Source: Nitrospirales bacterium
Lineage (GTDB): Bacteria > Nitrospirota > Nitrospiria > Nitrospirales > UBA8639
DNA length: 47,298 nt
Assembly: GCA_021604365.1 (NCBI GenBank)
Contig: BQIZ01000007.1
Span: forward strand, 1-47,298
Direction of reading: 5' to 3'
The first letter of the stretch is position 1, and each line of letters starts with the position of its first letter. Below the pieces are notes generated by a model. That model was not told where the DNA came from. It worked only from the letters and a program-made list of their open reading frames with translations, and did not search any database. A program made the position numbers and the translations under genes. Shown here piece after piece: positions 3,900 to 36,290 of the stretch.

Positions 3900-6500
<2,601 letters not shown>

Positions 6501-19432: not shown

Positions 19433-19577
19433 AAATTGAGTTAGGTTTCTAGAGGAAACTCAGAGGTTTTAGGACCGGTACGGGGAGGCGGGCGGAAGAA
19501 ATATCGATAGCCTCAATGGCATCGGCCCAAGGCTATAGTTAGGTAAAGGTTCTCTATCTCAGCGCGATGTAGGGAGG

Positions 19578-20110
19578 TCAGGCCCGCTTCCGGTGGATAA
19601 CATAATTCAGATCTCCTACTCTAAACCAGCGGTACCCGTAGGATTCAAGTGCCATTTTATGGATGCCGGAAGAAGGACTGTGACTTTCTTCCTCTGCCAA
19701 GAGGTTGACTAACCGATCTCCGCCTTTCACGCCAGGACGAATCCGCACTTCTTGCGGTTTTTCATCGAAATTATGCAGCACCACCAGAGAATTACCCGGC
19801 CGATCCTATCGCATGCCGGGCATTTTCGAAAAGCCTGTATGAAGGATATTCCACATGCCCCAGCCAATTTCCGAACATTCTTTGCGTAAACGAATTGTCT
19901 GGGCCATCCAATTCAGTAAAGAGCCGGGATCCCGTCGTCGCGCTTCCACATTAATCTGTTTGTAACTATACATACCGGATTCAATGACAGGATGAATCGT
20001 GTGTCCAGCTGTGGAAAAGCCAGTCTGGGCCTCATCCGACCATTGCATTGGCGTGCGCACAGTCGCCCGTTCTTTTAAGGTCAAATCATCGCCCATGCCA
20101 ATCTCATATC
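19578..20110 (-). pseudogene. Remnant of trehalose synthase/alpha-amylase family C-terminal part
   Basis: EIGMGDDLTLKERATVRTPMQWSDEAQTGFS...MPGMR(TAG)DRPGNSLVVLHNFDEKPQEVRI. The two ORFs are in the same frame, separated by one TAG; the 5' part is missing. Confidence 0.8.
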
Positions 20111-20649
20111 GTAAATGGATTCCTGACCTAGATGTCCTGCAGGTTGATCGAAAGGAGCGAACATCTTTTTTACCAATTGCCAGCCAAAGAAAAAGTAAAA
20201 CTATTCTTCGTGTAGCTGGTGAATATTGTGGTGTATTGAGGTGATCCTATTGAATTCCGAATTTAATGGTTCAACTGCGGGCAATCATATAGCCAGTTCG
20301 TCATCAATTAATTCACATGGGGAATGCCCACGAAAGTTCTCCCTATGGAGTGCACCCTCAGTGGCCCTCGCCCGGACAAACCTGACTGATCTCAGTAGGA
20401 CCGCAAGCAAGCCCCGTAGAAGAAAACGAACGGAGACGATTAAAGATTCCCCCAAAAAAACGGATGCACTTCCCCTCATTCAAAATACAATTTTACAATT
20501 TTGGGAAATTATCAATAGCCTTGACAGAAATTTGAAATGAGTAGAATCTAACTAATTCGGTGTTGCCATATTACTATCAAATGATAAGTGCAACCGGAAA
20601 TGGTAGCAGAAAACCGGATTTCCTTTTTAAGGAGCGGAGAGGGATCCTC

Positions 20650-21108
20650 ATGAACAGTGACCAGCAAATACCGATGAAGGTGTTCTATTCATATGCCCAT
20701 GAAGAAGAATCCTTAAAAGACGAACTGGCAAAACACTTAGCAATTCTCGAACGAGGTGGATTAATTTCTTCCTGGCACGATCGGGATATTACCGCAGGCC
20801 AGGAATGGAAAGATCAAATCAATGACAATCTCCTTACAGCACAGATCATCCTTCTTCTGGTCAGTCCGGATTTTCTCAACTCCGATTATTGCTATGACAA
20901 TGAGATGGTTTGAGCCATGGAGCTTCACCAGGAAAAAACAGCCTGTGTAATCCCTATCATCCTCCGTCCCTGTCTCTGGTCTCTGTCCGTCTTCGGGAAA
21001 CTTCAAGCGTTGCCGACCGGAGCTCAACCAATTACCAGTGTCCCCAATCGAGATGAGGCGATTGCCAATGTCGCTCTGGGAATTAAAAACCCCATTGAGA
21101 ACAGGTAG
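20650..21108 (+). pseudogene. TIR-domain protein interrupted by an in-frame TGA (or truncated TIR protein)
   Basis: MKVFYSYAHEEESLKDELAKHLAILERGGLISSWHDRDITAGQEWKDQINDNLLTAQIILLLVSPDFLNSDYCYDNEMV(TGA)AMELHQEKTACVIPIILRPCLWSLSVFGKLQALP... continuing in the same frame. Confidence 0.8.
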
Positions 21109-21277
21109 GTTTGTCAGTTATTGCACAACAGATACTTCAGGCCGAAGGGTTGAATAAAATCGATGGGTTCGACCTTTCGCAATGCCATACGCCTCCTTTG
21201 GAGCCATCACAGAATTGACCAAATGTCACAACGATCTTTCTGCTGAAAATTCAACTCATTAAAAGAGAGAGGGCTTC

Positions 21278-21541
21278 ATGAACAACGTATATATTATTGT
21301 CGGAGTTACTTGTCTATTTGTGGGATGTATGGGAGGCCAGTGGGTCAAAGAAGGGACATCTCCCGAAACCGTCCAACAAGACTACCGCGAATGCCAAACG
21401 ATGGGAATAGTTCAAGAACCGCAACCGGCGACACTGGGCGATAAAATTGGCGCCAATCCCGACATGAGCGGCCAGGCTATTGAACAATGCATGCGAGGGA
21501 AAGGGTATCGGTGGGTCACCGAAAAGACGACGAGCCCATAG
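21278..21541 (+). CDS. Small putative lipoprotein
   Basis: MNNVYIIVGVTCLFVGCMGG: signal with lipobox-like LFVGC; 87 aa. Confidence 0.65.
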   Translation: MNNVYIIVGVTCLFVGCMGGQWVKEGTSPETVQQDYRECQTMGIVQEPQPATLGDKIGANPDMSGQAIEQCMRGKGYRWVTEKTTSP

Positions 21542-21838
21542 GAGAGGGAAACAACCTAGGCCTCCTTCTTCTACGTTTTTATCTTATTGGCAGATTATCC
21601 GGATGGTTCCATTTTGATTGCAGGAGGGGCCGACAATTAGCCTGTAAGTGAAGACCGGAAGGCTTTTTTCAAGCGTTAATACCTGAAAAGTATGTAAATG
21701 GTGGAGCCCGATGGAGAAGTCTCGAAACAACTATTCCTGATTTTAGCAGAGTGGGACTTCATTCTTCAGAGCGCTTCGGTCGATCTCAGCCCATCTCTGT
21801 AATACCCGATAATACTGTATTTCAGTAGTACCTACTTT

Positions 21839-21880
21839 AAACGCTAGTCCAGAATCTTACTGGGCTGGCGTTTTTCTTTT
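21839..21880 (+). terminator. Intrinsic terminator-like hairpin AAACGCTAGTCCAG-AATCTTA-CTGGGCTGGCGTTT followed by TTCTTTT
   Basis: 14-bp stem with two G-U pairs, 7-nt loop, T-rich tail; directly upstream of mobC. Confidence 0.7.
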
Positions 21881-21951
21881 CCCTCGGTTTAACCAAGACA
21901 ATTCATGGCACGTATCGGCTCTGTTTCCCAGGAACAGGGTTTGGCCGTGCT

Positions 21952-22440
21952 ATGTCAATTTTAGAAAAAGTGAAAGATATGCCTGTACCCAAGAAAAAGC
22001 AAATATCGCCTTTCTCACTACGCCTGACGCCAGAAGAACGCACGCAGCTTGATAAGGATGCGGCAGGCATGTCTTTGGGGGCTTATATCCGTTCTCGTCT
22101 TTTTGAAAGCTCAATCCCTAAAAGGCGAACCCGGAATAAGTTTCCAGTCAAAGACCATCAGGAGTTGGCCAAAGTCCTGGGCGAACTGGGCAAATCACGC
22201 CTCGCCAACAATATGAACCAACTAGCCAAATCCGTGAATAAAGGAATTCTGGAAGTCACACCGGAAACCGAACAAGCCATTCACGCTGGCTGTTCGGATA
22301 TCCGGTGGATGCGTCATGTCCTAATGGCAGCTCTAGGTTTAATAGTGGAGAAAGATCATGATTCTGAAAGGCTCACAACGTGGTGGAGCCAGGCAACTGG
22401 CGACCCATCTTTTAAAGGTGGAGGAAAACGAGCATGTTGA
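21952..22440 (+). CDS. MobC-like relaxosome/mobilization accessory protein
   Basis: SPFSLRLTPEERTQLDKDAAGMSLGAYIRSRLFE...LGELGKSRLANNMNQLAKSVNKG; directly upstream of relaxase. Confidence 0.8.
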   Translation: MSILEKVKDMPVPKKKQISPFSLRLTPEERTQLDKDAAGMSLGAYIRSRLFESSIPKRRTRNKFPVKDHQELAKVLGELGKSRLANNMNQLAKSVNKGILEVTPETEQAIHAGCSDIRWMRHVLMAALGLIVEKDHDSERLTTWWSQATGDPSFKGGGKRAC

Positions 22441-23668
22441 AATTCATGAAATCTACGGCTTTGTCTCAGAAGACTTGGATGGGGCTTTGAGAGAAATCCA
22501 CGCCATCAGTCAAGGCACGCGCTGTAAGCAATTCATGTTTTCCCTAAGCCTAAATCCGCCTCAATCCGAATCTGTCCCAGTTGAGTATTTTGAAAAAGCG
22601 CTAACGGATATTGAAAAAGAGTTGAAACTTGAAAATCAGCCACGCGCCATCGTGTTTCATGAGAAGGAAGGCAGACGGCATTGCCATGCTGTCTGGTCAC
22701 GGATTGATACGAATGAGATGAAAGCTATCAACCTGCCGTATTTCAAAATGAAGCTTCAGAATATTTCCCGCCAGTTATATTTCCAATATGGCTGGCAAAT
22801 GCCCCTTGGCCTGATGAATAAGGAGGAACGCAATCCTCTCAATTTTTCCCTAAAAGAGTGGCAACAGGCCAAGCGCCTACAGGAAGATCCGAAAGTGATT
22901 AAACAGCTTTTCCAGGGTTGCTGGGCGGTTTCGGACAATAAGACCTCATTAGAAAAGGCTTTAAATGAGTATGGGTATTATCTGGCCAAAGGTGACCGAC
23001 GTGGTTTTGTCGCCATTGATTATCGCGGCGAGGTGTACTCTTTGAGCCGCTGGATGGGGGTGAAGACCAAAGACCTTAAACATCGTCTTGGAAATTTGGA
23101 GGCCCTACCAGGTACGAAAGAGGTTAATGCTCAAATCGCCGGGCGTATGAGCCAAATGCTGGAAACATATATATGCCAAGTCCAGAGTGGTATGAATAAA
23201 TCTCTTGAGCCTTTCAGGCAAAAGAAAGAGTCGATGAAAGACTCCCACCGAACACAGCGCCAGGACTTGAAAAAAAGGCAGAATGAGCGCCGTAAAGATG
23301 AAGAAAAAAAACGTTATCAGCGTCTGCCAAAAGGCTTTAAATCCCTTTGGGCAAGGATGACAGGGAAGTATCAAAAAATCAGAGCCCAGAATGAACGGGA
23401 GGTCAAAAACTTAAATATCCGCGATAGAGAAGAAAAGCAAGCTTTGATAGACCGTCAGCTTACGGACCGGCAGAATCTGCAAGATCAGGTCCGGCCTATC
23501 AAACGCCAACATCAAAAGCTGGCCATCCAACTCAAAAAGGATGTTGTACAATATTTAGAAATGAGAGAAATGCCAGAAGCTATATTTCAGCAGAAATTAT
23601 TCGATGCTGAAGATCGCTTGACAAAGACATTCATTAGAAGACGGGACTATGATCCCGAAATGAATTAA
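22358..23668 (+). CDS. Relaxase/mobilization nuclease
   Basis: MILKGSQRGGARQLATHLLK...IVFHEKEGRRHCHAVWSRID (His-rich metal motif), long charged C-terminus; overlaps mobC. Confidence 0.85.
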   Translation: MILKGSQRGGARQLATHLLKVEENEHVEIHEIYGFVSEDLDGALREIHAISQGTRCKQFMFSLSLNPPQSESVPVEYFEKALTDIEKELKLENQPRAIVFHEKEGRRHCHAVWSRIDTNEMKAINLPYFKMKLQNISRQLYFQYGWQMPLGLMNKEERNPLNFSLKEWQQAKRLQEDPKVIKQLFQGCWAVSDNKTSLEKALNEYGYYLAKGDRRGFVAIDYRGEVYSLSRWMGVKTKDLKHRLGNLEALPGTKEVNAQIAGRMSQMLETYICQVQSGMNKSLEPFRQKKESMKDSHRTQRQDLKKRQNERRKDEEKKRYQRLPKGFKSLWARMTGKYQKIRAQNEREVKNLNIRDREEKQALIDRQLTDRQNLQDQVRPIKRQHQKLAIQLKKDVVQYLEMREMPEAIFQQKLFDAEDRLTKTFIRRRDYDPEMN

Positions 23669-23729
23669 AATTGTAAGAGGGGTGCTTGTATTGGCATAAG
23701 CGTTTTTAATTATCGCCTCTCACCTACAA

Positions 23730-24596
23730 ATGAGCGAATCAAAAAGAGTTAAAAAGTTTTGCTTAACGATAGCTAAAAATATTCCTATCTTTCCAAACAA
23801 CAAGCAAACTAGACAAAAGCTATTAAATGAACCTTTAGGAACGCTGTTGATTCACTACGCAAACTGGGCTTCTCGGTACGTATCAATTAGGCCAAGAGTG
23901 GTTGAAGTATATTGTGAAGTGGAAGACAGCCCAAGAGGGGGAATTTTATCAGGTCTGATTACCACTTTCCTAAAAAAGGTAACGGAAGGTGAAGATTTAA
24001 CGACATATTTATCTTTGAAACCACATACCAGAGGCTACTCACCTGAAGCTTCAGGAACTGGACCAAATGTTAACCGTTGGGCGGATAAAGACTTTCTCCT
24101 CACAGTAATGGGTTATCACCATTTCCATTTAGGTCCAATTTGTGGTGAGAAGGGATTGGCCGCCCGCACTAACGAGATTCTGTTTGCCTACGTGTCTCGC
24201 GAAAAATTCGAAGTGTTAGGAGTCTTTGATCATTCTGTATTTGTTTCCAGCTCTTCTTCCCACCATGAAATGTCACAAGAACGATCCCGATTGTGGGCTA
24301 CTTTCGATGCCCACTCTTCAAGAGGAAGGCCTAGCGATTCTGTTGTGATATCCGGAGCTATAACTACGTCAGGCCATGCATTGCATTTAGTAATGCTGGC
24401 CCAGGATTATTCTCGTGTTATTCGAGATGTTGATCCATTGCTGGATGATCCTACTTACGTCAAACGTCTATATGAAACAGCCAATGAACCACTTCCAAAC
24501 AAACTGCGACTAGAATGGAAATTAATTTTTTTGGACCTTGGGCTATGGGATCAGAAGTTGAATAGGTTTTTTATTCTCAGGAAAGGGCCTAATTAA
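23730..24596 (+). CDS. Hypothetical protein with HHFHLG motif
   Basis: 288-aa ORF; DFLLTVMGYHHFHLGPICGEKGLAARTNEILFAYVSREKFEVLGVFDHSVF. Confidence 0.7.
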   Translation: MSESKRVKKFCLTIAKNIPIFPNNKQTRQKLLNEPLGTLLIHYANWASRYVSIRPRVVEVYCEVEDSPRGGILSGLITTFLKKVTEGEDLTTYLSLKPHTRGYSPEASGTGPNVNRWADKDFLLTVMGYHHFHLGPICGEKGLAARTNEILFAYVSREKFEVLGVFDHSVFVSSSSSHHEMSQERSRLWATFDAHSSRGRPSDSVVISGAITTSGHALHLVMLAQDYSRVIRDVDPLLDDPTYVKRLYETANEPLPNKLRLEWKLIFLDLGLWDQKLNRFFILRKGPN

Positions 24597-24699
24597 CAAT
24601 GGGCAGGTCAGCATGATGTGCACAATTTCCATCACTTACAAAAAGAGCTTCCTATCTGGATGCGAATAGGAAGCTCAAAAAAATAGCACCTCTTTGTTG

Positions 24700-25131
24700 C
24701 TAGGAGTGAGTATGTTCGAAGTGTTCTACTCTTGAAGGATTTCGAGGGTCCAGATCATGAGGTTGGTTTAATTTGTAGATTTCTCTAATTGCCGCGTCGA
24801 TGACCAGTCTGGCTTTTGAGCTAAATTCCATAAGCTTTGTAGATTTAGCGATTATTTCATTACCCAGGTATTTATTGGCTTTCCTCAGCCGTTTTTCAAG
24901 AATTTCAGGATTTCCAACTCTCCCACCATAAATCATTCCCAAAACTGAAGATAATTCCATCGTTGCTTCGTGAAGCAAAGGCCTGAAGATTGGAAGTAAC
25001 GCACCAGATGTTGAAAGTGCCTTTTCCATTTCAGACACAATTTCGTCTAATTGCTTAATAGATGGTGGGCAATCTACTGCAGAGTTGGCATTACTCATTA
25101 AGAATATCCTTCGGTTTTTATCTTTAAACAC
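24700..25131 (-). CDS. Hypothetical protein (143 aa ORF)
   Basis: ORF divergent from the neighbouring membrane protein; likely start at ATG 25098 (MSNANSAVDCPPS). Confidence 0.55.
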   Translation of the reverse strand: MFKDKNRRIFLMSNANSAVDCPPSIKQLDEIVSEMEKALSTSGALLPIFRPLLHEATMELSSVLGMIYGGRVGNPEILEKRLRKANKYLGNEIIAKSTKLMEFSSKARLVIDAAIREIYKLNQPHDLDPRNPSRVEHFEHTHS

Positions 25132-25193
25132 TTAAGTAACGACCCTATTACCCTATATTTTTTTTGTCAAATCCCTTATTATCGCCGGCCATT

Positions 25194-26345
25194 ATGTCAA
25201 AGAAAGACTATATCTCAATAATCAATTCGTATCCTGATATTTTAGAACCTGCCGAGGAGTTCCTCACCTCCTTATTGGAAGATATTTCCAAACAAGAAGT
25301 TATCGATGACCGTAGGATTCGGCGGGAGGGATTGGAACGTATTGCAGGTCCTTTCAAATTTATAGATTTGGTCTACATTTTAAACGCGGAAGGTGATCTT
25401 ATTGATGATAGCTATAAGTGTGAAATTGCTGGAGCTTATATGTTCGCAAGTACCTCCGATAATGAAGCTCGCATAAGTAGGTATTTACAGCAGGAAAACA
25501 GGGAAAAAGCGTCGACTAACAGCGGACGGAAAAACCGAGATTATTTTAGACAAGTAGATCTTGACGGAGAGAGCGGAATTGTCCACGTTACAGAACCTTA
25601 TCTTTCTACAGCTACAGGATTTCCATGTATATCTGCCTCCGTAGCAATAGAGGAAAAATCTGTAGCAATAGGAGAAAAAAGTAAAAGAAAAATTTTAGTA
25701 ATGGACGCTGACCTTTCTGGTTTGCAAGCTTTTCTTAATGGCGATGTGGACGGACATAAAAGAGAAAATATTTTCAATAGGATATATAGGACATTATTAG
25801 TCACTTTAGGAGGGATAACAGGTATTTTATTCATCGGTGGGATTGCAGAACTAGTGATGGCTCTTAAAGATATAATATTTCCTAAATGGGACTATAAGGC
25901 CGCATTCTTTTCATCCAACACATCACACCATTTTGATATCACAGTTTTTTTAGATATTCTTGTTACGTTTACAGTAGCGTTAGCAATGTTGGACTTGGTG
26001 AAAACATTGTGGGAAGAAGAAATTATTTTTTATAAAGATTTAACAAAACCTAGTCCAGCAAGGAGAACGGTGATACGGTTCATTACCGCCATTCTCATCG
26101 CACTTTCAATTGAAACCCTTGTCCAGGTCTTTAAAGTTTCCCACATGGGTGAAACAGACAAAATTCCTTTAGACCCCATCTCGATGCTATATGGTGTCAC
26201 CGCGCTTTTAATTGGGCTTGCCGTATACATTGTCCTAACCAGCCTTACAGACCTTACAAAAGACAGAGTTTTACTCAGGGCCATTCAAGATAGCATTGGA
26301 AATCTTTCAAAAGTTAAGGAATCTAAAGATAGGGGAACCCCTTAA
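25194..26345 (+). CDS. Membrane protein with PDC/Cache-like N-terminal region and four predicted TM helices
   Basis: NRDYFRQVDLDGESGIVHVTEPYLSTATGFPCISASVAI...KILVMDADLSGL resembles Cache signature; hydrophobic segments in the C-terminal half; ATG at 25194 preferred over TTG at 25164. Confidence 0.65.
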   Translation: MSKKDYISIINSYPDILEPAEEFLTSLLEDISKQEVIDDRRIRREGLERIAGPFKFIDLVYILNAEGDLIDDSYKCEIAGAYMFASTSDNEARISRYLQQENREKASTNSGRKNRDYFRQVDLDGESGIVHVTEPYLSTATGFPCISASVAIEEKSVAIGEKSKRKILVMDADLSGLQAFLNGDVDGHKRENIFNRIYRTLLVTLGGITGILFIGGIAELVMALKDIIFPKWDYKAAFFSSNTSHHFDITVFLDILVTFTVALAMLDLVKTLWEEEIIFYKDLTKPSPARRTVIRFITAILIALSIETLVQVFKVSHMGETDKIPLDPISMLYGVTALLIGLAVYIVLTSLTDLTKDRVLLRAIQDSIGNLSKVKESKDRGTP

Positions 26346-26490
26346 ACTTCATACAGCACCCCTGAATTTATTGCTTACATCTTTAAATTTGCCATACTAA
26401 AGAATAACAAACTAAGGGGTGGCTGGTTTGTGTCGAGTCTGGAGAGAGCTCAAGGCGAGGCAGAGCCGAAGGCAGATAAGAAATGCATCC

Positions 26491-26559
26491 AAGGACGCAT
26501 CCTTAGTCGTCGTGCAGGGAACAAAACCCCTGCTTGAAGTCCAGCAACCGAAATGCTGG
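26491..26559. other. Three consecutive short hairpins in an intergenic region (possible structured RNA or repeat remnant)
   Basis: AAGGA-CGCA-TCCTT (26491-26504), GCAGGG-N8-CCCTGC (26514-26533), CCAGCA-N7-TGCTGG (26541-26559). Confidence 0.45.
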
Positions 26560-26752
26560 CCGTAATTGAACGGCGGAATAGATGGCGCGCAATTGGCCAA
26601 TAGTTTAGAACTAATTATTTCAGAATTTATATGATTGAAACCTAATTCTACAAAGCTCTCCTTCTGATTTCAGCCCATCTTTTTAAGTCTCAGCATCTGG
26701 CCTTTAAGAACGGCGTTTCCTTTATTCTTAACATTGGCTATTCTTCGGAATT

Positions 26753-28477
26753 ATGTCAGAAAACTTGCTCACTATCCCTAAAGATGCTGCCCAAAAAATT
26801 ATAGCTTCTAGCGCTATTATTGCTTGCCCGATTCTGGGCACAAACAATTTCATTAAGTTCTGCAGAGACCGTGACTTAAACATAAACCGCGAGCGTCTTT
26901 TTCGATTGGAACGCCTCGAGTTGTTTTCACCTATTTTCCGAGTAAAAACTCCAGAAAAAGACAGCCCCTCATTTGCAATCCCATTGGTTGAAAATAATAA
27001 CTGGTTTGTTAAAGGCTGGGCGTGGGACACAACTGACATAAAGCAAAAATATTCTGTGCCAGACCATAAAGACCATGCTCAAGAGGGATATTATTCGATC
27101 TTTCAAATTGACCACCTGAGCCTTGTCCTTTCGGCCATGAGTCTTGATGTTCATATGGATGATTTTTTGGATAAGGGTAAGCAACACGAAATTGACTGGG
27201 AAAAGAAAGGAAGGCGCTGGATTGAGTTATTTCAAAGTCAAGGAGAAAGTCTTGCCACCCATGAATACCGCCGCAGCACAGCACTTCTATGTCAATTCAT
27301 ATCTAATCGATATTATCCCCAAACCCAAACAGACCAGCGAACCATCAAAACAGGAGGAAGATTCTATTCAGACCAATGGATCACTGTATTAAAGAAAAAC
27401 TATGATTGGGATGAGGCTGTTCGTATTTGGCAACCACATTCTGCAGAAGAACTCTTTGATCTCACACCCGAAAAATTAAAGCATGCTTATGAGGGATTAT
27501 CCATCGCGCAATCATCCTGCGATCCTTTGGATAGTTGGTATCAACTTGTTCAATTTATATCTGTAAATGAACGACAGAAATTAAAAGGCCAAGCTTTACG
27601 TGCTGAGACGATCCGTGCAGGAGCAAACATGCTTCGCCTTCTATACAAAGACCTCTACAGCGAAGAATTACCCAATCCCAATGAAATTACACGAACCATC
27701 ATCACACACATTCCAGAGTTAGAGGTACGAAAAGACACTCGTCGCTATTTAGAGTTTGTAGTTAATCAGTATAAATTAAATCCTCAGCCGTCTCTTTGCT
27801 TGCTTGTAGAAGGTAAAACTGAAGAATTGGCTGTGACTAAGATTTTTGAGGAATACTTTAGTGCCCACCCAGGAACATACGGAATCGAGATCATTAATTT
27901 ACGCGGTGTCGATAATGCAACGGGCGGGAAAAAGGAGCAATATCAAGCAATTATTCGACTGATTGATTATTTACATCATCATCAAACTTTTGCCTTTCTA
28001 ATTTTAGACAATGAAGGATATGCAGGAAACCTTCAAAAGAGAGCCAAAAAAGCTAAATCCATCCACCAACATCGCCTATTCGTTACTCGACCAGAGTATA
28101 TCAAAATCTGGGGAATATCATTCGAATTCGATAATTATTCATGCCAGGAAATTGCCACGGCGCTAAATAAAATAGTCTGCGGCAAAGCACTTTTTTCCGG
28201 AAAAGACATAATGGCGTGTAAGAAAGATCAGTACCCTGGTGCAAGCCTAGAAAAACTCTTTGAAGAAAAAATCCAACGATCACTTCCTAAAGTTCAATTT
28301 AATGAAATCTTGCTTGAAACTATGTTCTCCGAAACATCTCGGAGAAAAATTAGCAATCGGCCCATTATCAAAATCCTTGAACGTGCTGCAAAACTTGCAG
28401 CAAGAAATCCTCTTCCTACGATGAACGAGATTTGGGTGAAAAACCAAGCATCAAAATATTTAGGGAAAAAAGGGTGA
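26753..28477 (+). CDS. Uncharacterised protein with TOPRIM-like region
   Basis: 574-aa ORF; PSLCLLVEGKTEELAVTKIFEEYF...TFAFLILDNEGYAGNLQKRAKK reminiscent of OLD-type TOPRIM. Confidence 0.65.
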   Translation: MSENLLTIPKDAAQKIIASSAIIACPILGTNNFIKFCRDRDLNINRERLFRLERLELFSPIFRVKTPEKDSPSFAIPLVENNNWFVKGWAWDTTDIKQKYSVPDHKDHAQEGYYSIFQIDHLSLVLSAMSLDVHMDDFLDKGKQHEIDWEKKGRRWIELFQSQGESLATHEYRRSTALLCQFISNRYYPQTQTDQRTIKTGGRFYSDQWITVLKKNYDWDEAVRIWQPHSAEELFDLTPEKLKHAYEGLSIAQSSCDPLDSWYQLVQFISVNERQKLKGQALRAETIRAGANMLRLLYKDLYSEELPNPNEITRTIITHIPELEVRKDTRRYLEFVVNQYKLNPQPSLCLLVEGKTEELAVTKIFEEYFSAHPGTYGIEIINLRGVDNATGGKKEQYQAIIRLIDYLHHHQTFAFLILDNEGYAGNLQKRAKKAKSIHQHRLFVTRPEYIKIWGISFEFDNYSCQEIATALNKIVCGKALFSGKDIMACKKDQYPGASLEKLFEEKIQRSLPKVQFNEILLETMFSETSRRKISNRPIIKILERAAKLAARNPLPTMNEIWVKNQASKYLGKKG

Positions 28478-28633
28478 AGCTTGTAAGGTGTAACCTGGAG
28501 GTTCTATGGGAATGCGGAGTCTCTTCTTGCGAATGATAAAACGGCGATACGTTTTGATGGTGTGAAGTGGGCGGATGCCAACACAGCTCCAAGGCTAGAG
28601 GGATGCAACGGGAGAGCGCAGCATCTCCCTTGC

Positions 28634-28679
28634 CAAGATGTGTTGTAGTACAACACACATCTTGCGGTAATCCTTACCG
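28634..28679. repeat. Two abutting hairpins: CAAGATGTGTTGTA-G-TACAACAC(AC)ATCTTG and CGGTAA-TCC-TTACCG
   Basis: Direct reading of inverted repeats. Confidence 0.7.
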
Positions 28680-28812
28680 TTAAGGCTTTCAGGCAGCTGT
28701 AATACAGTTAATGTTCTCGAGATGATCCGACATGAACCGTAACCGAACTGGCGTCAGACCCCATTGCTTGTTAATTCAGGTGCTTACGAGAAGACAAGGT
28801 AGGGCCAGAAGT

Positions 28813-29064
28813 TTATTGCGAGGCCAAGGATTCCTCAACGGCCTTGCGGATATATTTCTGGTAGGAAATACCTTCTTGGTCTGCTTTCTGCCGTACTGCC
28901 GAAAGCAGTTGCTCTGAAAACCGTAGATTGACCTGCTTGTCCTTCGGAAGCATCTCAAAATTGACCGAGGTGAAATTCTTCAGATTGATGTAATCCGTCA
29001 AATCCTGGTCCAGGAACTTTTCAGCGTCTTTATCACTCTTCAATTTTGGCACTTTCTTCTTCAT
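28813..29064 (-). CDS. brnA: BrnA-like antitoxin
   Basis: NLRFSEQLLSAVRQKADQEGISYQKYIRKAVEESL, downstream of and overlapping brnT; start at MKKKVPKLKSD. Confidence 0.75.
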   Translation of the reverse strand: MKKKVPKLKSDKDAEKFLDQDLTDYINLKNFTSVNFEMLPKDKQVNLRFSEQLLSAVRQKADQEGISYQKYIRKAVEESLASQ

Positions 29065-29350
29065 ATCGTTTCGCCTCTTTCTCATGCATATAACGGGCAC
29101 TAATGGGCCGGATTAACCTCTCTCCATTCACATCCCGCAGGGTAAACACTACAAACATCGGCTTGTGCTTTTTAGAGCGTCCAATGGCCAGATAACGTTC
29201 CTCTTCATCGGAATGCTTGGGATCGGGGGCAACCAACACCTCGTGTTGGTGAAAGAAATATTCAATTTCCTTCTGGGAGAGCCCATGTTTCTGGCACTTT
29301 TCCCGATTCCCTTCATCCCAATCAAAGCCGTTTACCTGTAGATTTATCAT
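29033..29350 (-). CDS. brnT: BrnT family toxin
   Basis: GFDWDEGNREKCQKHGLSQKEIEYFFHQHEVLVAPDPKHSDEEERYLAIGRSKKHKPMFVVFTLRDVNGERLIRPISARYMHEKEAKRYEE. Confidence 0.9.
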   Translation of the reverse strand: MINLQVNGFDWDEGNREKCQKHGLSQKEIEYFFHQHEVLVAPDPKHSDEEERYLAIGRSKKHKPMFVVFTLRDVNGERLIRPISARYMHEKEAKRYEEESAKIEE

Positions 29351-29682
29351 AGCATGACGTTATGCATTTGTCTATACAAATGTCAATCTCTTTATTCTTC
29401 CATTTTTGACTCGGCAAATGAGAACAAATCGTGTACATTTATTTTTGAACTCACCCAAACCATATCAAATACTTTTTATTACGAAAAATTGCTTGCCTGG
29501 TGTTGAGAGTTCTTCATCGAACAAACCGCTTTTCTGATTTCTCCAATTCAGACAACACTACCATGCGTCCTGTTTCCCAACCAGGAAACCTTCTCATGTT
29601 ATATATTTTTCAGTCATTCGTTTTAACCCTTTATGATGCGTCTGTCTTACAGCCAGCCGTAAGGAATCGTTGTGATCTTGTC

Positions 29683-29955
29683 ATGTCCTTAGATATTCAG
29701 AAATACACCCGCTTCGTCGAAGGCTTTGACCTGACCGACAAGCAGAAGCGGGAATTAATCCAAACGGTCTGGCAGATCATGGAAGGCTTTGCTGATCGGG
29801 GCTGGGGTATTCATCCCTTACAACAGGGGCGTGGTAAAGAGAAAAATAGAGATTGCCAAGGGAAGAATGGGTCCATAGAATCGAAGGACACCAACCCTGA
29901 AACATTCATTGGTTCTTCAATGCCTCCACCTTTGGAGAACAAGAAAGATTCATAA
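29683..29955 (+). CDS. Small hypothetical protein upstream of recombinase
   Basis: MSLDIQKYTRFVEGFDLTDKQKRELIQTVWQIMEGFADRGWGIHPLQQ; likely internal ATG start in ORF 29500-29955. Confidence 0.6.
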   Translation: MSLDIQKYTRFVEGFDLTDKQKRELIQTVWQIMEGFADRGWGIHPLQQGRGKEKNRDCQGKNGSIESKDTNPETFIGSSMPPPLENKKDS

Positions 29956-29964
29956 GCAATAGAA

Positions 29965-31548
29965 ATGAAAGCGAAACCCATGTCAAAGCAAAGTCATATA
30001 CCAAAGGCCGTGATTTATTGCCGCGTGTCCAGTACCGCCCAAGTCACCAAAGGTGATGGGTTGGGTTCACAAGAAACACGCTGCCGCGAGTACGCGAAAC
30101 ATAAACATTACGAGATTGTGGAAGTGTTTAAGGATGAAGGTATATCAGGTAGTTTGATTGACCGTCCTGGTATGCAAGCGATGCTGAAATTTCTACGAGC
30201 ACGGGAGACGAAACAAGATATCGTCATCATTGATGACATTAGCCGTCTGGCGCGTGGGCTGGAAGCACATATCCAACTTCGTATGGCCATTGGGGAAGCC
30301 GGGGGAAAGTTAGAAAGTCCTTCAATTGAATTTGGAGACGATAGTGATAGCCAGTTGGTGGAAAATCTTCTGGCTAGTGTCTCGCAACATCAGCGGCAGA
30401 AAAACACCGAACAGGTGGTTCACCGCATGCAAGCCCGGATGATGAACGGCTATTGGGTCTTTTTTCATCCGATCGGCTACCGCTATGAGCGCGTGAGCGG
30501 CCACGGCAAAATGCTGGTACGGGATGAACCACTCGCGTCCATTATCACTGAAACTCTAGAAGGCTATGCACGGGGTCGATTTGAAACGCAGAGCGAGGTC
30601 AAGCGGTTCCTGGAGTCTCATGAGGCCTTTCCAAGGGGGCGAGATGGGAAAGTCCATTATCAGCGGGTCAACAACTTGCTGGTGCAGGTCCTCTATTCAG
30701 GGTACATCACCTATTCCCCTTGGAATATCACACTCCATCCTGGGAAACATGAGCCCCTGATCAGTTATGAGACTTTCCAGGCTATTCAAAAGCGGCTAAA
30801 CGGACAAAGTAAAGCTCCAGCACGCAAGGACCTCAATGCGGACTTTCCGTTACGAGGGTTTGTCACCTGTGGATGCTGCGGCTCTGCCATGACGGCATGC
30901 TGGTCCAGAGGACGAGACCGGAGTTATCCGTATTATCTCTGTCCTCAGAAAGGTTGTGAAGCATACGGCAAATCGATCCGAAAGGAAATCTTAGAAAAAG
31001 AGTTTGAAACTCTTTTAAGCGAACTCCGGCCTTCACCCAATCTCTTTTACCTAGCTTTGGAGATGTTCAAAGAACTGTGGAGTCATCGGCAGCAACAAGC
31101 CAGACAAGAAGATCAACACATGCAGGGTGAGTTGCGCAGGATTGGGAAAAAGATTGATCAATTTCTTGACCGTATGGTGGAAGCAGACACCTCCATGCTT
31201 GTAAAAACCTATGAAAACAAGGTCAAGGACTTGCAGGAAAAACAGGTTATTTTAAACGAAAAAATCAAAAATTGTGGTCGTCCGCTCCAAAGCTTCGATG
31301 AGAGTTTTAGAACCGCGTTTGATTTCCTAGGAAACCCTTATAAACTCTGGAGTTCTGACCGTCTTGAGGATAAGAGAATGGTGCTGAGATTGGCGTTTTC
31401 TGAGAAATTACCCTATGACCGAAATGAAGGTTTTAGAACCGCCCCAACCGCCCTCCCCTTCAGGCTTTTAAGCGATTTGAAGGGGTGCGGAAATAGTATG
31501 GTGGAGGGCACGGGAGTTGAACCCGCGACCCCTACGTTGCGAACGTAG
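29965..31548 (+). CDS. Large serine recombinase
   Basis: AVIYCRVSSTAQVTKGDGLGSQETRCREYA resolvase N-terminus; recombinase domain; zinc ribbon CGCCGSAM...CPQKGC; C-terminus (GTGVEPATPTLRT) reads through antisense tRNA-Ala. Confidence 0.93.
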   Translation: MKAKPMSKQSHIPKAVIYCRVSSTAQVTKGDGLGSQETRCREYAKHKHYEIVEVFKDEGISGSLIDRPGMQAMLKFLRARETKQDIVIIDDISRLARGLEAHIQLRMAIGEAGGKLESPSIEFGDDSDSQLVENLLASVSQHQRQKNTEQVVHRMQARMMNGYWVFFHPIGYRYERVSGHGKMLVRDEPLASIITETLEGYARGRFETQSEVKRFLESHEAFPRGRDGKVHYQRVNNLLVQVLYSGYITYSPWNITLHPGKHEPLISYETFQAIQKRLNGQSKAPARKDLNADFPLRGFVTCGCCGSAMTACWSRGRDRSYPYYLCPQKGCEAYGKSIRKEILEKEFETLLSELRPSPNLFYLALEMFKELWSHRQQQARQEDQHMQGELRRIGKKIDQFLDRMVEADTSMLVKTYENKVKDLQEKQVILNEKIKNCGRPLQSFDESFRTAFDFLGNPYKLWSSDRLEDKRMVLRLAFSEKLPYDRNEGFRTAPTALPFRLLSDLKGCGNSMVEGTGVEPATPTLRT

Positions 31549-31574
31549 TGCTCTCCCAACTGAGCTAGCCCCCC
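31499..31574 (-). tRNA. tRNA-Ala (anticodon CGC), CCA encoded
   Basis: GGGGGGCTAGCTCAGTTGGGAGAGCACTACGTTCGCAACGTAGGGGTCGCGGGTTCAACTCCCGTGCCCTCCACCA folds as a cloverleaf; loop TTCGCAA. Confidence 0.95.
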
Positions 31575-31744
31575 ACACATGCGATTCGTGCTCTGTGAAG
31601 CGTTGGAAAGAAGAAAGCCTTATGAATTGAAAAATATCGAAGGATTATAACTGACTATTAGTCGGGTTGCCATCGCTGACCTATTTTTTTTGCCGGCCCG
31701 CATCCTCTCACGCGCCCATTAATCGTTTATTTCCCATAATTCGT

Positions 31745-32365
31745 TCAAGAAAGAATGTGAACCTGACGCCCCTCCAGATGTAATCGTTGTTGTGCCATCA
31801 GTTGAAGAGCCTGAGGATAACATTCATGCTCATTCTCCAATATACGAGCGGATAAGGATTCCACCGTATCCCCTTCAAGAATGGGCACGGCGGCTTGCAC
31901 AATAATAGGCCCTTCGTCGACCCCTTCCGTCACCAAATGCACCGTGCAACCGCTCACTTTTGCTCCCCACTCCAAGGCTTGGCGTTGCGCATCAAGTCCT
32001 GGAAACGCCGGCAGGAGGGAGGGATGGATATTAAAGATTTTCGATGGATACATCCGAATTAAAGTGGGTGTCACAATCCGCATGTATCCCGCCAGCGCCA
32101 CATATTTCACTCCATGGTGCTGAAGAAGGGCACCCATGGCCCGATCATAGGCTTCGCGAGGGTTGGTTTCCTGGGTAAAAGGTTTTGGATCCAGATAGAC
32201 TGTGGGAACGCCTCGTTCCTTCGCCCGCTCCAAACCCGCGGCATTGAGCTTGTTACTGGCCACGAGCTTGACCGTCGCATCCAACGAGCCACGATCAATG
32301 GCATCCAGAATGGCCATCAGATTTGATCCGCGGCCGGAGATTAAGACCCCAAGGGCAAGCGACAC
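31745..32365 (-). CDS. purN: Phosphoribosylglycinamide formyltransferase
   Basis: LGVLISGRGSNLMAILDAI...ALAGYMRIVTPTLI...NIHPSLLPAFPGLDAQRQALEWGAKVSGCTVHLV. Confidence 0.96.
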   Translation of the reverse strand: MSLALGVLISGRGSNLMAILDAIDRGSLDATVKLVASNKLNAAGLERAKERGVPTVYLDPKPFTQETNPREAYDRAMGALLQHHGVKYVALAGYMRIVTPTLIRMYPSKIFNIHPSLLPAFPGLDAQRQALEWGAKVSGCTVHLVTEGVDEGPIIVQAAVPILEGDTVESLSARILENEHECYPQALQLMAQQRLHLEGRQVHILS

Positions 32366-32377
32366 AGTTTCAACCTT

Positions 32378-33415
32378 CTAATGCGAATAACAAAGCTTTG
32401 GCTCAGAAGACGGGCGATCTCGAACCTCTCCAATGACAAAACCCGTCATCCCTTGTTCCTGAATTATGTCCAATATCCGGCTGGTTTCTTCAGGTGGGGC
32501 CACCACGACCAGACCAATTCCCATGTTAAACACGCGAAACATTTCGTCTTGATTAATGGCTCCGGCTTCTTGAAGAACTGTGAACAACGGGAGTGGCGCC
32601 CATGTGCTTCGATCGATGACCGCTTGGCAGGACTCCGGAATGACGCGTGGCACATTCCCTGTCATTCCCCCGCCGGTGATATGCGCCAGACCATGTAATC
32701 GGCTCTTCGACAATAAGGCTTTGACCAGCTTCACGTAAATAAAAGTCGGCTTGAGTAAGGCCTCTCCGACCGTGCCCGGCAACCCGGGTACCCGGGTCTG
32801 AGGAGACCACTCCTTCAGCTCAAGCACGACTCTACGCGCCAGAGAATAGCCATTACTATGAAGGCCACTCGACCCGACTCCAATCAACACATCCCCGTTT
32901 TTAATTTTTTCCGGGCCCAACATCTCTGATCGTTCCACCACGCCTACCGCAAAACCGGCCAGATCGTATTCGCCCTTCGGGTAACAGGAAGGCATTTCCG
33001 CCGTTTCTCCACCAATCAAGGCACAACCGGCCTGGCGACATCCCTCCGCAATTCCCTGAATAATCGCCTCTCCGACTTCCACCTCCAGATGGCCCGTCGC
33101 AAGATAATCCAGAAAAAAGAGGGGCTCCGCTCCGCTCACAATAATGTCGTTGACGCACATCGCCACCAAATCTATCCCGATCGAATCATGTTGATTCATT
33201 GAGGTGGCCATCTTGACCTTGGTGCCCACCCCATCCGTCCCGGACACCAGAATCGGCTCTCGATAGCGATCGGAAGGAAACCGAAAGAGACCGCCGAACC
33301 CTCCGATGTCCCCCAAGACTTCCGGACGGAAGGTCGAGCGAACCATGGGGCCAATGCGTTTGACAAACTCATCGCCTCGTTGAATATCTACTCCCGCTTC
33401 TCGATAAGTGGCCAT
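32378..33415 (-). CDS. purM: Phosphoribosylformylglycinamidine cyclo-ligase
   Basis: TYREAGVDIQRGDEFVKRI, GTDGVGTKVKMA, GGETAEMPSCY, HITGGGMTGNVPRV. Confidence 0.97.
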   Translation of the reverse strand: MATYREAGVDIQRGDEFVKRIGPMVRSTFRPEVLGDIGGFGGLFRFPSDRYREPILVSGTDGVGTKVKMATSMNQHDSIGIDLVAMCVNDIIVSGAEPLFFLDYLATGHLEVEVGEAIIQGIAEGCRQAGCALIGGETAEMPSCYPKGEYDLAGFAVGVVERSEMLGPEKIKNGDVLIGVGSSGLHSNGYSLARRVVLELKEWSPQTRVPGLPGTVGEALLKPTFIYVKLVKALLSKSRLHGLAHITGGGMTGNVPRVIPESCQAVIDRSTWAPLPLFTVLQEAGAINQDEMFRVFNMGIGLVVVAPPEETSRILDIIQEQGMTGFVIGEVRDRPSSEPKLCYSH

Positions 33416-33424
33416 GGCGTATCC

Positions 33425-34840
33425 TTAATCTCCGTCATCCGGTTCAGGTGCTGAAAGCGTCAATTCGACTAATGTTTCAAGATGTGCTGTCTGGGGAAAC
33501 ATATCAAAGGGTTGCATTCGCTGAATGGTATAGCCCTTTTCACATAATGATTTAATATCCCGGGCTAATGATGGGGCGTCGCAAGAAAGATAGAACAGTC
33601 TGGGGACTTGCAAGACTCCCAAGCGGTCCACAATTTTTGGATGAAGTCCCGCACGCGGTGGATCCAGGAGGATAACATCGTAGGCGCCGGATTTGACAGT
33701 CATGAGATAGGATTCGACCGAACTGATTCGCACACGACACCCTGCAATCTCATTAATGCGCAGGGACTCGCGGGCATCGTGGATGGCAAACGGATTCCCT
33801 TCCACACAGGTCACCTGAGCACCCTGGTTCGCGAGGCTGAGACCTAAAGGGCCGGTTCCGGCATACAACTCCAAAATTCGTTGCCCTTTAAGATTACCCA
33901 ACCACTCCCCTACCATCTTCCCCAACAATTCAAAGACGTCCCAGTTGGCCTGCATAAATGATCGATATCCTATTTTCAGGCGCAATCCTCCAAAGGCTTC
34001 CCATACATGATCGGCTCCTCGTACAATCGGCTCATGCCGCACACGGCGCCTCGAATCATGCTCCGGGGCATCCGCGCGCTCATAAATCCATCCCTTGATG
34101 TTGGGAATTTCAGAACAGGCGTGCATCAGACGCTCGACGTGTTCTTTGGTCACGGCTCGACCGCGGAATACCAACAGTCCCCCCTCCTCCAGTTGGGCCC
34201 ATCGGATTTCCACACTTTCTAAATTCATCCCATCAATGACCAAGGAGCGAAGGCTGGACCGGACAGCATCAATAACCGATCGCATTTTATCGTCCACCAA
34301 AAAACACGTGTCAACCGGTAGCAGTTGTTGAGTCCCTGATGCAAAAAATCCCAGGAATAATCCGTCCGGTCCCTCCCCGATTCCCATGCGCAGGACTTGC
34401 CGATAGCCATAGGGCCTCGGAGACGGGATCACTGGGGAAATCGGCACATCGAAAATTTTCCCAATCCGACAAAGGGTATCTTCCAGAATTAATCGTTTTT
34501 GAGAAAGTTGTTCTTCGTATTGCACATGCTGAAGCTGGCATCCCCCACATCGCCCGACGACGGGACAGGGTGGAACAACCCGGCTCTCAGCCGGATCCCG
34601 GACCTGGAGGATCTTCCCCTGGCTCACGCCTTTGCGCCGACTGAGTATCTCCACCTGTACGGCTTCACCGGGAATGCCACCACCACACAACACCACCTGA
34701 CCATCCACTCGTCCGAGACTGAATCCGCCTGCCACCAGTTTTTCAATCTGGAAAGGATGAGAAGATCCGGGAGACAACATTTCAGTAGAAGTAGGGGAAG
34801 GAGTCCTGCGAGGCTTAATGTTCGGGCCGGAGTTCAACAT
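33425..34840 (-). CDS. rlmD: 23S rRNA (uracil-C5)-methyltransferase RlmD-like
   Basis: TRAM-like N-terminus, CPVVGRCGGCQLQHVQYEEQLSQKR Fe-S motif, LDPPRAGLHPKIV, LSCDAPSLARDI. Confidence 0.88.
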   Translation of the reverse strand: MLNSGPNIKPRRTPSPTSTEMLSPGSSHPFQIEKLVAGGFSLGRVDGQVVLCGGGIPGEAVQVEILSRRKGVSQGKILQVRDPAESRVVPPCPVVGRCGGCQLQHVQYEEQLSQKRLILEDTLCRIGKIFDVPISPVIPSPRPYGYRQVLRMGIGEGPDGLFLGFFASGTQQLLPVDTCFLVDDKMRSVIDAVRSSLRSLVIDGMNLESVEIRWAQLEEGGLLVFRGRAVTKEHVERLMHACSEIPNIKGWIYERADAPEHDSRRRVRHEPIVRGADHVWEAFGGLRLKIGYRSFMQANWDVFELLGKMVGEWLGNLKGQRILELYAGTGPLGLSLANQGAQVTCVEGNPFAIHDARESLRINEIAGCRVRISSVESYLMTVKSGAYDVILLDPPRAGLHPKIVDRLGVLQVPRLFYLSCDAPSLARDIKSLCEKGYTIQRMQPFDMFPQTAHLETLVELTLSAPEPDDGD

Positions 34841-36188
34841 GAAGTAACTTAATCTTTCTGTGTAAATGACTACGCTCGATTTTCAATTCATCAGCGGTTT
34901 TGGAGACATTCCAATTATTCTCCCTGAGCTTAAGAGAAATGACCTCACGCTCAAAGGCATTGCGGGCTTCCCGGAGTGAGTCATAGTTGGTCCCCACGAC
35001 CAGGGAGGGCACTCCGCTAGGCGCCCGGCCCTGGAGAAACATCTCAACATCCGCCGCATCAATGATTGTCTTCGGCACCATGATGAGTAATCGCTCAATC
35101 AAATTCCGGAGTTCCCGAATATTTCCCGGCCAATCATGCCGTTGCAACGCCTCCATGCCTTGCGGACTAAACTCTTTAGGTTTTATGCCTTGTTCTTCCG
35201 AATGGAGTCGCAAAAAATGCTGAGCGAGTTCAGGGATATCATCACGACGCTCCTTGAGGGTCGGGACCACAATCGGCAGAACATTTAACCGGTAATAGAG
35301 ATCTTCACGGAAGGTCCCTTTTCCAATTTCTTCCGACAAATCTTTATTGGATGCCGCAATGACCCGGACCTGGACATTGATGAGTTTTGTTCCGCCAACC
35401 CGTGTAAATTGTTGCTCTTGAAGGGCACGCAACACTTTGGCTTGCGTGGCCAGACTCATGTCCCCAATTTCATCTAAAAACAGGGTTCCCCCGTCAGCCA
35501 GTTCAAACTTGCCACGTTTCATGGAACTGGCGCCACTGAAAGCCCCTTTTTCATGACCGAATAACTCACTCTCGATCAACGTTTCCGGAATCGCGGCACA
35601 ATTGATTTCCACAAAGGAACGATTATGCCGTGGGCTCTGCAAATGAATTGCGCGGGCGACAAGTTCCTTCCCTGTCCCATTGGCCCCGGCAATCAACACA
35701 CGGCTATTGGCTGGAGCCGCCATCGCAATCAGTTCGCGCAGCCGCTCCATAGCCGGCGAAGACCCCACCAATTCAAATCGCCGCTCCACCTGAATCCTGA
35801 GATTCAGGTTTTCCTCTTCCAGCTTGCGTTGGTGCAAGGCATTTCGCACCAATATCGTGACTTTTTCTAAATCTAAGGGTTTCTCTAAATAATCATAGGC
35901 ACCCAGTTTTGTGGATTTGACAGCGGTTTCAATGGATCCATGCCCGGACATCATCACAACTAAGATGTTGGGAAACTGGGTACGCAATCGCTTCAACGTC
36001 TCCAGCCCGTCCATCTCAGGCATCCAGATATCCAAAATGACCAGGTCTGGAACCTCACTTCGGACAATCTTGAGCGCCTCCAGGCCGCTCTTCGCCACCA
36101 GGACTTGATAGCCTTCATCCTCAAGAATGCTGCTTAAGGTATTGAGAATGGCTGGTTCGTCATCAATTAGACAAATGGTCTCGGCCAC
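34815..36188 (-). CDS. Sigma-54-dependent response regulator (NtrC/NtrX family)
   Basis: Receiver domain (ICLIDDEPAILNTL...VILDIWMPEMDGLE), AAA+ with GANGTGKELVARAIH, ESELFGHEKGAFSGA (GAFTGA variant), C-terminal HTH. Confidence 0.95.
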   Translation of the reverse strand: MAETICLIDDEPAILNTLSSILEDEGYQVLVAKSGLEALKIVRSEVPDLVILDIWMPEMDGLETLKRLRTQFPNILVVMMSGHGSIETAVKSTKLGAYDYLEKPLDLEKVTILVRNALHQRKLEEENLNLRIQVERRFELVGSSPAMERLRELIAMAAPANSRVLIAGANGTGKELVARAIHLQSPRHNRSFVEINCAAIPETLIESELFGHEKGAFSGASSMKRGKFELADGGTLFLDEIGDMSLATQAKVLRALQEQQFTRVGGTKLINVQVRVIAASNKDLSEEIGKGTFREDLYYRLNVLPIVVPTLKERRDDIPELAQHFLRLHSEEQGIKPKEFSPQGMEALQRHDWPGNIRELRNLIERLLIMVPKTIIDAADVEMFLQGRAPSGVPSLVVGTNYDSLREARNAFEREVISLKLRENNWNVSKTADELKIERSHLHRKIKLLHVELRPEH

Positions 36189-36290
36189 AATATGACCTCC
36201 ATCGGGTGTGTAATGAGTGGTCCCTCACGCGTGTCTTGCAAAACAACCCTTCCGGAAAAAAGACGGTCCAGCCACTGACGTTCTCCTCCC

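Follow-up and report, generated by a model that had tools for sequence, protein, structure and literature searches.

The stretch of DNA analysed here, which we call the window, is 47,298 bp of contig BQIZ01000007.1 from a metagenome-assembled genome (MAG) of a Nitrospirales bacterium (GCA_021604365.1). It contains a block of genes that ends at a tRNA-Ala(CGC) gene. From left to right the block consists of a left attachment site (attL), a short coding stretch that we call the tail, mobC, a relaxase gene, four cargo open reading frames (ORFs), the BrnT/BrnA pair, the gene for a 90-aa protein, the gene for a large serine recombinase (LSR) and a right attachment site (attR). We consider it highly probable (about 0.88) that positions 21699-31498 are a 9.8-kb integrative mobilizable element (IME) with its own LSR, that this LSR belongs to a clade specific for tRNA 3' ends and reads the T-loop, that the element's attachment site attP lies in the LSR gene, and that the tail of the enzyme is swapped on integration.

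Boundaries of the element

The LSR reading frame (29965-31548) enters the tRNA-Ala(CGC) gene that ARAGORN calls at 31499-31574 on the minus strand. The recombinase gene does run into the 3' end of the tRNA, as described in an original prediction made from the window's letters. That prediction also proposed a 9-bp repeat as attL and attR, and cautioned that so short a match can arise by chance. The caution was justified. The repeat, ATGGTGGAG, occurs exactly twice on both strands of the window, at 21698-21706 and 31498-31506, and about 0.25 copies of this 9-mer are expected at the window's base composition. The repeat alone is therefore weak evidence, suggestive but short of proof.

The decisive proof comes from an empty site. 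In G002, a single-contig genome of the same genus, window position 21706 is joined directly to 31498. Two alignments to this genome (G002:C1, L046), one of window 21201-21706 at 91.9% and one of window 31498-36234 at 89.5%, share exactly 9 bp, and these 9 bp are ATGGTGGAG (L046 15165-15173). The junction reads ...AAGTGTAAGTAAATGGTGGAGGGCACGGGAGTTGAAC..., essentially the sequence that had been foretold for an empty site. At the level of sequence comparison, then, G002 confirms the boundaries, rules out a chance repeat and establishes the proposed element of about 9.8 kb at the tRNA-Ala 3' end. The left end, which had been offered as tentative, stands as a coordinate, but the flank to the left of 21698 is not simple chromosome (see the last section). 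G002 also places the target site, attB, within the tRNA gene, and ARAGORN finds the tRNA intact beside the integrated element. The tRNA is not a gene of the element itself; we rejected this option because the relatives G002, G020, G001 and G009:C99 retain the tRNA together with the same downstream gene.

A second empty site exists for a homologous 38-kb element in G052. In G059 the two flanks overlap by 12 bp (TGGTGCGCCCGG), and 18.3 kb of left flank align to G052 at 93% before the tRNA is reached.

Related integrases at tRNA genes

We compared the LSR with 238 genomes of the order, many of which are incomplete MAGs, and accepted homologues at E<=1e-30. Matches are present in 14 of the 238 genomes. 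Thirteen of these LSRs adjoin a complete tRNA, which can be Ala(CGC), Arg(ACG), Arg(TCG), Arg(TCT) or Glu(TTC), and the 14th (G193) terminates in a tRNA-Glu 3' fragment. The orientation is constant, with the LSR stop codon running into the tRNA 3' end in all 14, and a conserved LSR motif lies at an equal distance from the tRNA end in all 13 tRNA-abutting members. More distant LSRs end within tRNA-His (G007), tRNA-Glu (G001, a broken gene), tRNA-Ala (G237) and tRNA-Met (G018). Outside the order, where breadth was judged from plasmid records, the LSR of Legionella adelaidensis (NZ_LR134433) ends within tRNA-Asn. In Phaeobacter inhibens DSM 17395, Tritonibacter mobilis and Paracoccus pantotrophus there are C-terminal LSR remnants that overlap tRNAs; the remnant in Devosia neptuniae sits immediately upstream of a tRNA.

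A maximum-likelihood tree places 15 tRNA-associated LSRs in one group (support 90/91), separate from A118, TP901-1 and phiC31. Judged from these comparisons, the LSR is a member of a clade that targets tRNA 3' ends systematically. The G237 LSR falls outside the 15-member group, on a long branch, and the use of tRNAs by LSRs may therefore have arisen more than once.

Such a preference differs from what has been described. The serine IMEs in a 2017 review disrupt dispensable genes or have low specificity (PMC5704250), and in mycobacterial surveys attB sites in tRNAs go with tyrosine integrases (PMC8092301, PMC10654092). In the open-access literature tRNA genes are not known as targets of serine integrases, although a case may have been published in a subscription journal or preprint. 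The remark in the original prediction that LSRs use tRNA genes less often is right in direction and understates the case.

Two side observations concern the plasmid records. In Legionella adelaidensis (L125) a tyrosine integrase gene lies directly upstream of the LSR. On the Rhodobacterales plasmids L122, L121 and L123 the C-terminal part of the LSR is all that is left, over the tRNA 3' end, and it is annotated as a hypothetical protein at most.

A T-loop motif in the attachment sites

TGG is the complement of the CCA in the tRNA, and we number positions in the att sites from its T. In the target tRNAs examined, positions 19-24 hold the T-loop in antisense, with the sequence TTCGAAC, TTGAAC or something close to them. 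The element-derived arm at the left end carries TCGAA(A/C) at positions 24-29 in the window, G052, G231, G011 and G232. In these five paired elements attP thus has the motif 5 bp farther out than attB does, in one half-site only. A zinc-domain motif shifted by 5 bp between attP and attB is known from the LI integrase (PMC3783163). Most likely, the zinc domain of the LSR reads the near-universal T-loop, which the element imitates with a motif lying 5 bp more distant from the crossover.

The crossover itself can be narrowed down. At position 4, G052 has T in attB and attL and C in attR, which puts the exchange at or to the right of position 5. At position 9 the window's attL ceases to match attB. 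Provided that the cut is the same in all members, strands would be exchanged at positions 5-8 from the tRNA 3' end, in the acceptor stem. The last bases of the tRNA, with the CCA end, would therefore be supplied by the element and the tRNA would stay whole. In G052, integration appears to have altered one base of the tRNA 3' end.

Some left ends required a choice or escaped us. For G231 one candidate was a displaced piece of tRNA-Arg, 48 nt long and at a distance of 37 kb. We rejected it in favour of a site linked to mobC at 32 kb from the tRNA, which has the conserved arm and tail and makes a better boundary; the displaced piece lies next to an LSR remnant and is probably a scar of earlier date. 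An exact-repeat search for the left ends of G009 and G237 found none, and G100 offered no usable empty site for G097, as the flanks are too rearranged.

A split integrase gene and its conserved tail

In every member the LSR frame passes through the core. The integrated-state LSRs end in codons read from the tRNA antisense strand, for example VEGTGVEPATPTLRT, VRPTGLEPVAT or ARPEGVEPPTS. When the two ends of the element are joined in silico across the core, the LSR frame continues into left-end sequence that codes for a tail of about 30 aa (window, MVEPDGEVSKQLFLILAEWDFILQSASVDLSPSL; G231, LARLNGVSSNLLFQILEEWNLILKSASVNLSPAL; G011, MVRPRGKSSNHLFHILEEWNAVLQNTSLYNIPSPS). This places attP inside the LSR gene, which integration splits.

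Over the tail, pairwise ratios of nonsynonymous to synonymous substitution rates (dN/dS) are 0.14-0.38, which shows purifying selection on the predicted tail. The LSR frame (frame 0) is open at 15 of 15 tail loci; the other two frames have early stops in 12/15 and 7/15. The most conserved part among these 15 left ends is an internal LFxxLEEWN stretch. We also searched with a pattern built from the att arm alone, ending at GAAC before the tail begins. It matched 23 sites in 18 of 235 genomes, compared with 3 for the reversed pattern used as a control, and 14 of the 23 sites run in frame into a tail. Finally, in a decayed copy in G230 the 3' end of the LSR runs without a break through the core into the tail (...RTARNEELSFPFRCLQDFTSGKHEVARPEGVSSNLLFQTLEEWNRILQGTSLLSCLTPGQ).

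Neither the split integrase gene nor the 5-bp-shifted T-loop motif formed part of the original prediction; the same is true of an older insertion at 19435-21697, to which we return below.

Two further loci of this kind may be mentioned. In G236:C18 (L193) two left ends with arm and tail, at 1501 and 2474, are 973 bp apart, from successive insertions or a collapse. In G123:C1 (L218) a decayed element of about 6.4 kb reaches from a left end at 8543 to an LSR 3' end at 14796-14996, at tRNA-Arg(TCT), with its tail truncated.

Gene content

The element combines its own integrase with MOB genes and precise ends, and a Pfam scan of its ORFs shows no family of a type IV secretion system (T4SS), the apparatus for mating-pair formation; we therefore class it as an IME. 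The domains that define the LSR class, PF00239 followed by PF07508 and PF13408, all score above the cut-off. A Pfam scan of the element ORFs found no tyrosine integrase, which leaves the LSR as the only integrase present. No known domain was found in the 90-aa protein. Its gene immediately precedes that of the LSR in seven homologous elements, and it is therefore a candidate accessory or directionality factor. In five related elements (G052, G231, G011, G236, G137) mobC begins about 205-275 bp inside the core, so that the combination of tail, mobC, relaxase, cargo and LSR recurs, an architecture that is well supported. A homologous tRNA-Ala element (L048, G009:C432) has a LuxI/LuxR-type autoinducer pair as its cargo, at 4752-6301.

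Table 1. Features of the element, its attachment sites and the adjoining DNA (window coordinates).
Feature	Position	Strand	Evidence and remarks
Older accessory segment at the same tRNA	19435..21697		Absent in G020 and G009:C99; partial in G002; duplicated in G010 near a tyrosine integrase; has a TIR (ThsB-like) gene with in-frame stop
attL core ATGGTGGAG	21698..21706	+	Last 8 nt of tRNA-Ala, antisense, plus 1 flanking base; exact G002 junction
LSR gene 3' part in the predicted circular form, tail MVEPDGEVSKQLFLILAEWDFILQSASVDLSPSL	21698..21802	+	Stop 21800-21802; separated from LSR by integration; conserved in 15 loci
Element-derived (attP) right arm	21707..21728	+	TCGAAA at 21722-21727, 24-29 nt from T of TGG; same spacing in G052, G231, G011, G232; order-wide DNA pattern search
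Noncoding gap between tail and mobC	21803..21951		Likely place of the origin of transfer (oriT), by position only
mobC (NikA-like auxiliary mobilization protein)	21952..22440	+	PF21983 E=4e-10; homologues beside other left ends
MobA/VirD2-type relaxase (MOBP-like)	22358..23668	+	PF03432 E=7e-14; identity 69% to G231, 59% to G052
Cargo ORF, 288 aa	23730..24596	+	Weak likeness to defence candidate PD-T4-7 (PADLOC E=1e-4); no Pfam match
Cargo ORF, 143 aa, no assigned function	24700..25131	-	ORF list, Pfam and PADLOC scans
Cargo ORF, 393 aa, no assigned function	25164..26345	+	Sub-threshold Pfam match only
Cargo ORF, 574 aa, OLD/GajA-type TOPRIM domain, possible defence	26753..28477	+	PF20469 E=2.5e-6; GajA E=1.6e-5
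BrnA/CopG antitoxin	28813..29100	-	PF12441 E=1e-24
BrnT RNase toxin	29033..29350	-	PF04365 E=1e-20
90-aa protein, candidate directionality or accessory factor	29683..29955	+	tblastn matches directly upstream of LSR in 7 homologous elements
LSR, element-encoded part	29965..31497	+	Resolvase PF00239, Recombinase PF07508, Zn ribbon PF13408; PHROG integrase E=2e-72
attR core ATGGTGGAG	31498..31506	+	G002 empty site
Host-encoded LSR tail, integrated state (MVEGTGVEPATPTLRT)	31498..31548	+	Read from the tRNA antisense strand
Target gene tRNA-Ala(CGC)	31499..31574	-	ARAGORN; antisense T-loop motif TTGAAC at 31517-31522, 19-24 nt from 3' end

Discussion

How might such an element work? Our proposal is that its own LSR would insert it site-specifically at the 3' end of tRNA-Ala(CGC). 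One half of attB would be the acceptor and T-arm of the tRNA, with the zinc domain on the T-loop (TTCGAAC/TTGAAC). Excision would yield a circle in which the LSR carries the conserved tail of about 30 aa. We predict ...GGAAATAGTATGGTGGAGCCCGATGGAG... as the circle junction and ...GTGCGGAAATAGTATGGTGGAGCCCGATGGAGAAGTCTCG... as the excision junction with the tail-bearing LSR gene. The circle could then be transferred by the relaxase on the T4SS of a helper. Integration would sever the tail, leaving it behind in front of mobC, and the LSR would gain a short tRNA-antisense tail instead. The tail-bearing LSR would be the form that integrates, and the integrated-state form would be inactive or specialised for excision, perhaps together with the 90-aa protein. 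The likeliest role of the tail swap would thus be to switch the enzyme between an integrating form and an integrated-state form.

Several points weigh against this reading. The second half-site of attB, outside the tRNA, has no clear motif. The left ends of G009, G097, G155 and G110 were not found, some of these contigs being too short, and several left ends lie in genomes that contain no LSR, which fits decayed copies and also incomplete MAGs. The circle and the transfer are deduced from an assembled MAG rather than from reads, dependence on a helper would follow from the ORFs of the element, and an effect of the tail swap on activity would follow from structural reasoning.

The main alternative takes the conserved tail for a stability tag. 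The integrase of the circular form would then be short-lived and that of the integrated form stable (or the reverse), and the direction of catalysis would not change. Integration-dependent systems with removable C-terminal degradation tags do exist (PMC9262239), and many of our tails have short hydrophobic endings (SL, AL, TL or SF, for instance). Conservation, however, peaks in the internal LFxxLEEWN stretch and not at the extreme C-terminus, and none of the tails examined has an ssrA-like LAA ending. We therefore regard a stability tag as unlikely, though it deserves more weight than the options that follow.

It is a good deal less probable that the tail is a small peptide in its own right, or that the att DNA itself is conserved, and that the LSR reads through it in the circle by an accident of position. 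In the integrated state an ATG lies at the core in the window, G011, G232 and G010, which would allow translation of a free peptide. Yet an ATG at the core is absent from the majority of the 15 left ends, frame-specific conservation extends about 24 codons past the att arm, and in G230 the LSR 3' end is fused in frame to the tail.

It is very improbable that the LSR is a passenger that happens to lie at the tRNA and that another enzyme inserted the element, such as a tyrosine integrase of the kind seen in the older island. A tyrosine integrase does occur at this tRNA in G010, flanked by tRNA-fragment scars, and another adjoins the LSR in Legionella adelaidensis, but the scanned ORFs of the element include none, LSR homologues adjoin five different tRNAs at fixed spacing, and the att arms follow the LSR-specific 5-bp rule.

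To our knowledge, no case of an integration-altered integrase is known among serine integrases. The integrase of the Myxococcus phage Mx8 is a tyrosine recombinase. As in our element, attP of Mx8 lies within int and integration replaces the 3' end of the gene, after which the properties of the integrase are altered (PMC6070905). Mx8 differs in being a phage rather than an IME, and a 5-bp-shifted T-loop motif is not reported in that review. Mycobacteriophages with integration-dependent immunity likewise have attP in a coding gene, attB at a tRNA and a product that is changed by integration (PMC9262239); there the altered product is a repressor and a tyrosine integrase does the work, whereas here the serine integrase itself is altered.

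Other systems resemble parts of the element. The serine-recombinase IMEs (Tn4451/TndX and streptococcal elements; PMC5704250) share the combination of MOB genes with a single LSR and the short direct repeats at attL and attR, but their insertions hit dispensable genes or low-specificity sites and not the 3' end of a tRNA that stays intact. The phage LSRs (phiC31, A118/LI, TP901-1, Bxb1) have the same domain order and, for LI integrase, the same 5-bp offset of the zinc motif between attP and attB (PMC3783163); the tRNA target, the position of attP within the integrase gene and the separate clade in the tree set the present LSR apart. Tyrosine-integrase islands in tRNAs (Islander; PMC4383910) also use the tRNA 3' end as attB, supply a matching 3' end and leave a displaced fragment at the far end, but here the enzyme is a serine recombinase and the shared core is very short (8-12 nt).

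What would a family of serine integrases that chooses tRNAs systematically mean? The T-loop is common to nearly all tRNAs, and the clade could therefore move between tRNA genes; a simple sequence rule would explain such moves. Whether the clade does move in this way, with the universal T-loop as zinc half-site, and whether the exchange of tails at an attP inside the gene makes insertion itself the direction switch or shut-off, is a broader proposal for which we see roughly even odds. If it is true, a serine integrase that reads the T-loop would offer a portable tool, one for which many bacteria contain landing sites. A C-terminus that is rewritten by the enzyme's own reaction would also bear on the question of how serine integrases control direction.

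Older DNA at the same tRNA

In the closest relatives, G020 (94%) and G009:C99, synteny with the window ends at about 19434 and the tRNA is reached about 0.4 kb later. The DNA at 19435-21697 is therefore an older insertion at the same tRNA, and part of it is present in G002, which lacks the element. In G010 a related segment occurs twice and flanks about 10 kb with a tyrosine integrase, each copy ending in a degraded tRNA 3' end (TGGTGGGGGCACGG). With a tyrosine integrase between such scars, tRNA-Ala(CGC) is probably a hotspot for both serine and tyrosine integrases. The degraded tRNA-Ala 3' ends lie at 577-600 and 11582-11605 of L051 (G010:C113), and the segment of about 10 kb between them holds, besides the tyrosine integrase, a pentapeptide-repeat protein and an FG-GAP repeat protein, as expected of tandem insertions at the same tRNA.

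The older DNA to the left of the element also contains a TIR-domain gene (window 20560-20913 and on to about 21110) that resembles ThsB of Thoeris (PADLOC E=1.6e-31) and is split by an in-frame stop. About 415 bp of this region (window 20787-21200) are missing in G002 and in both G010 copies, where 20786 joins 21201 directly.

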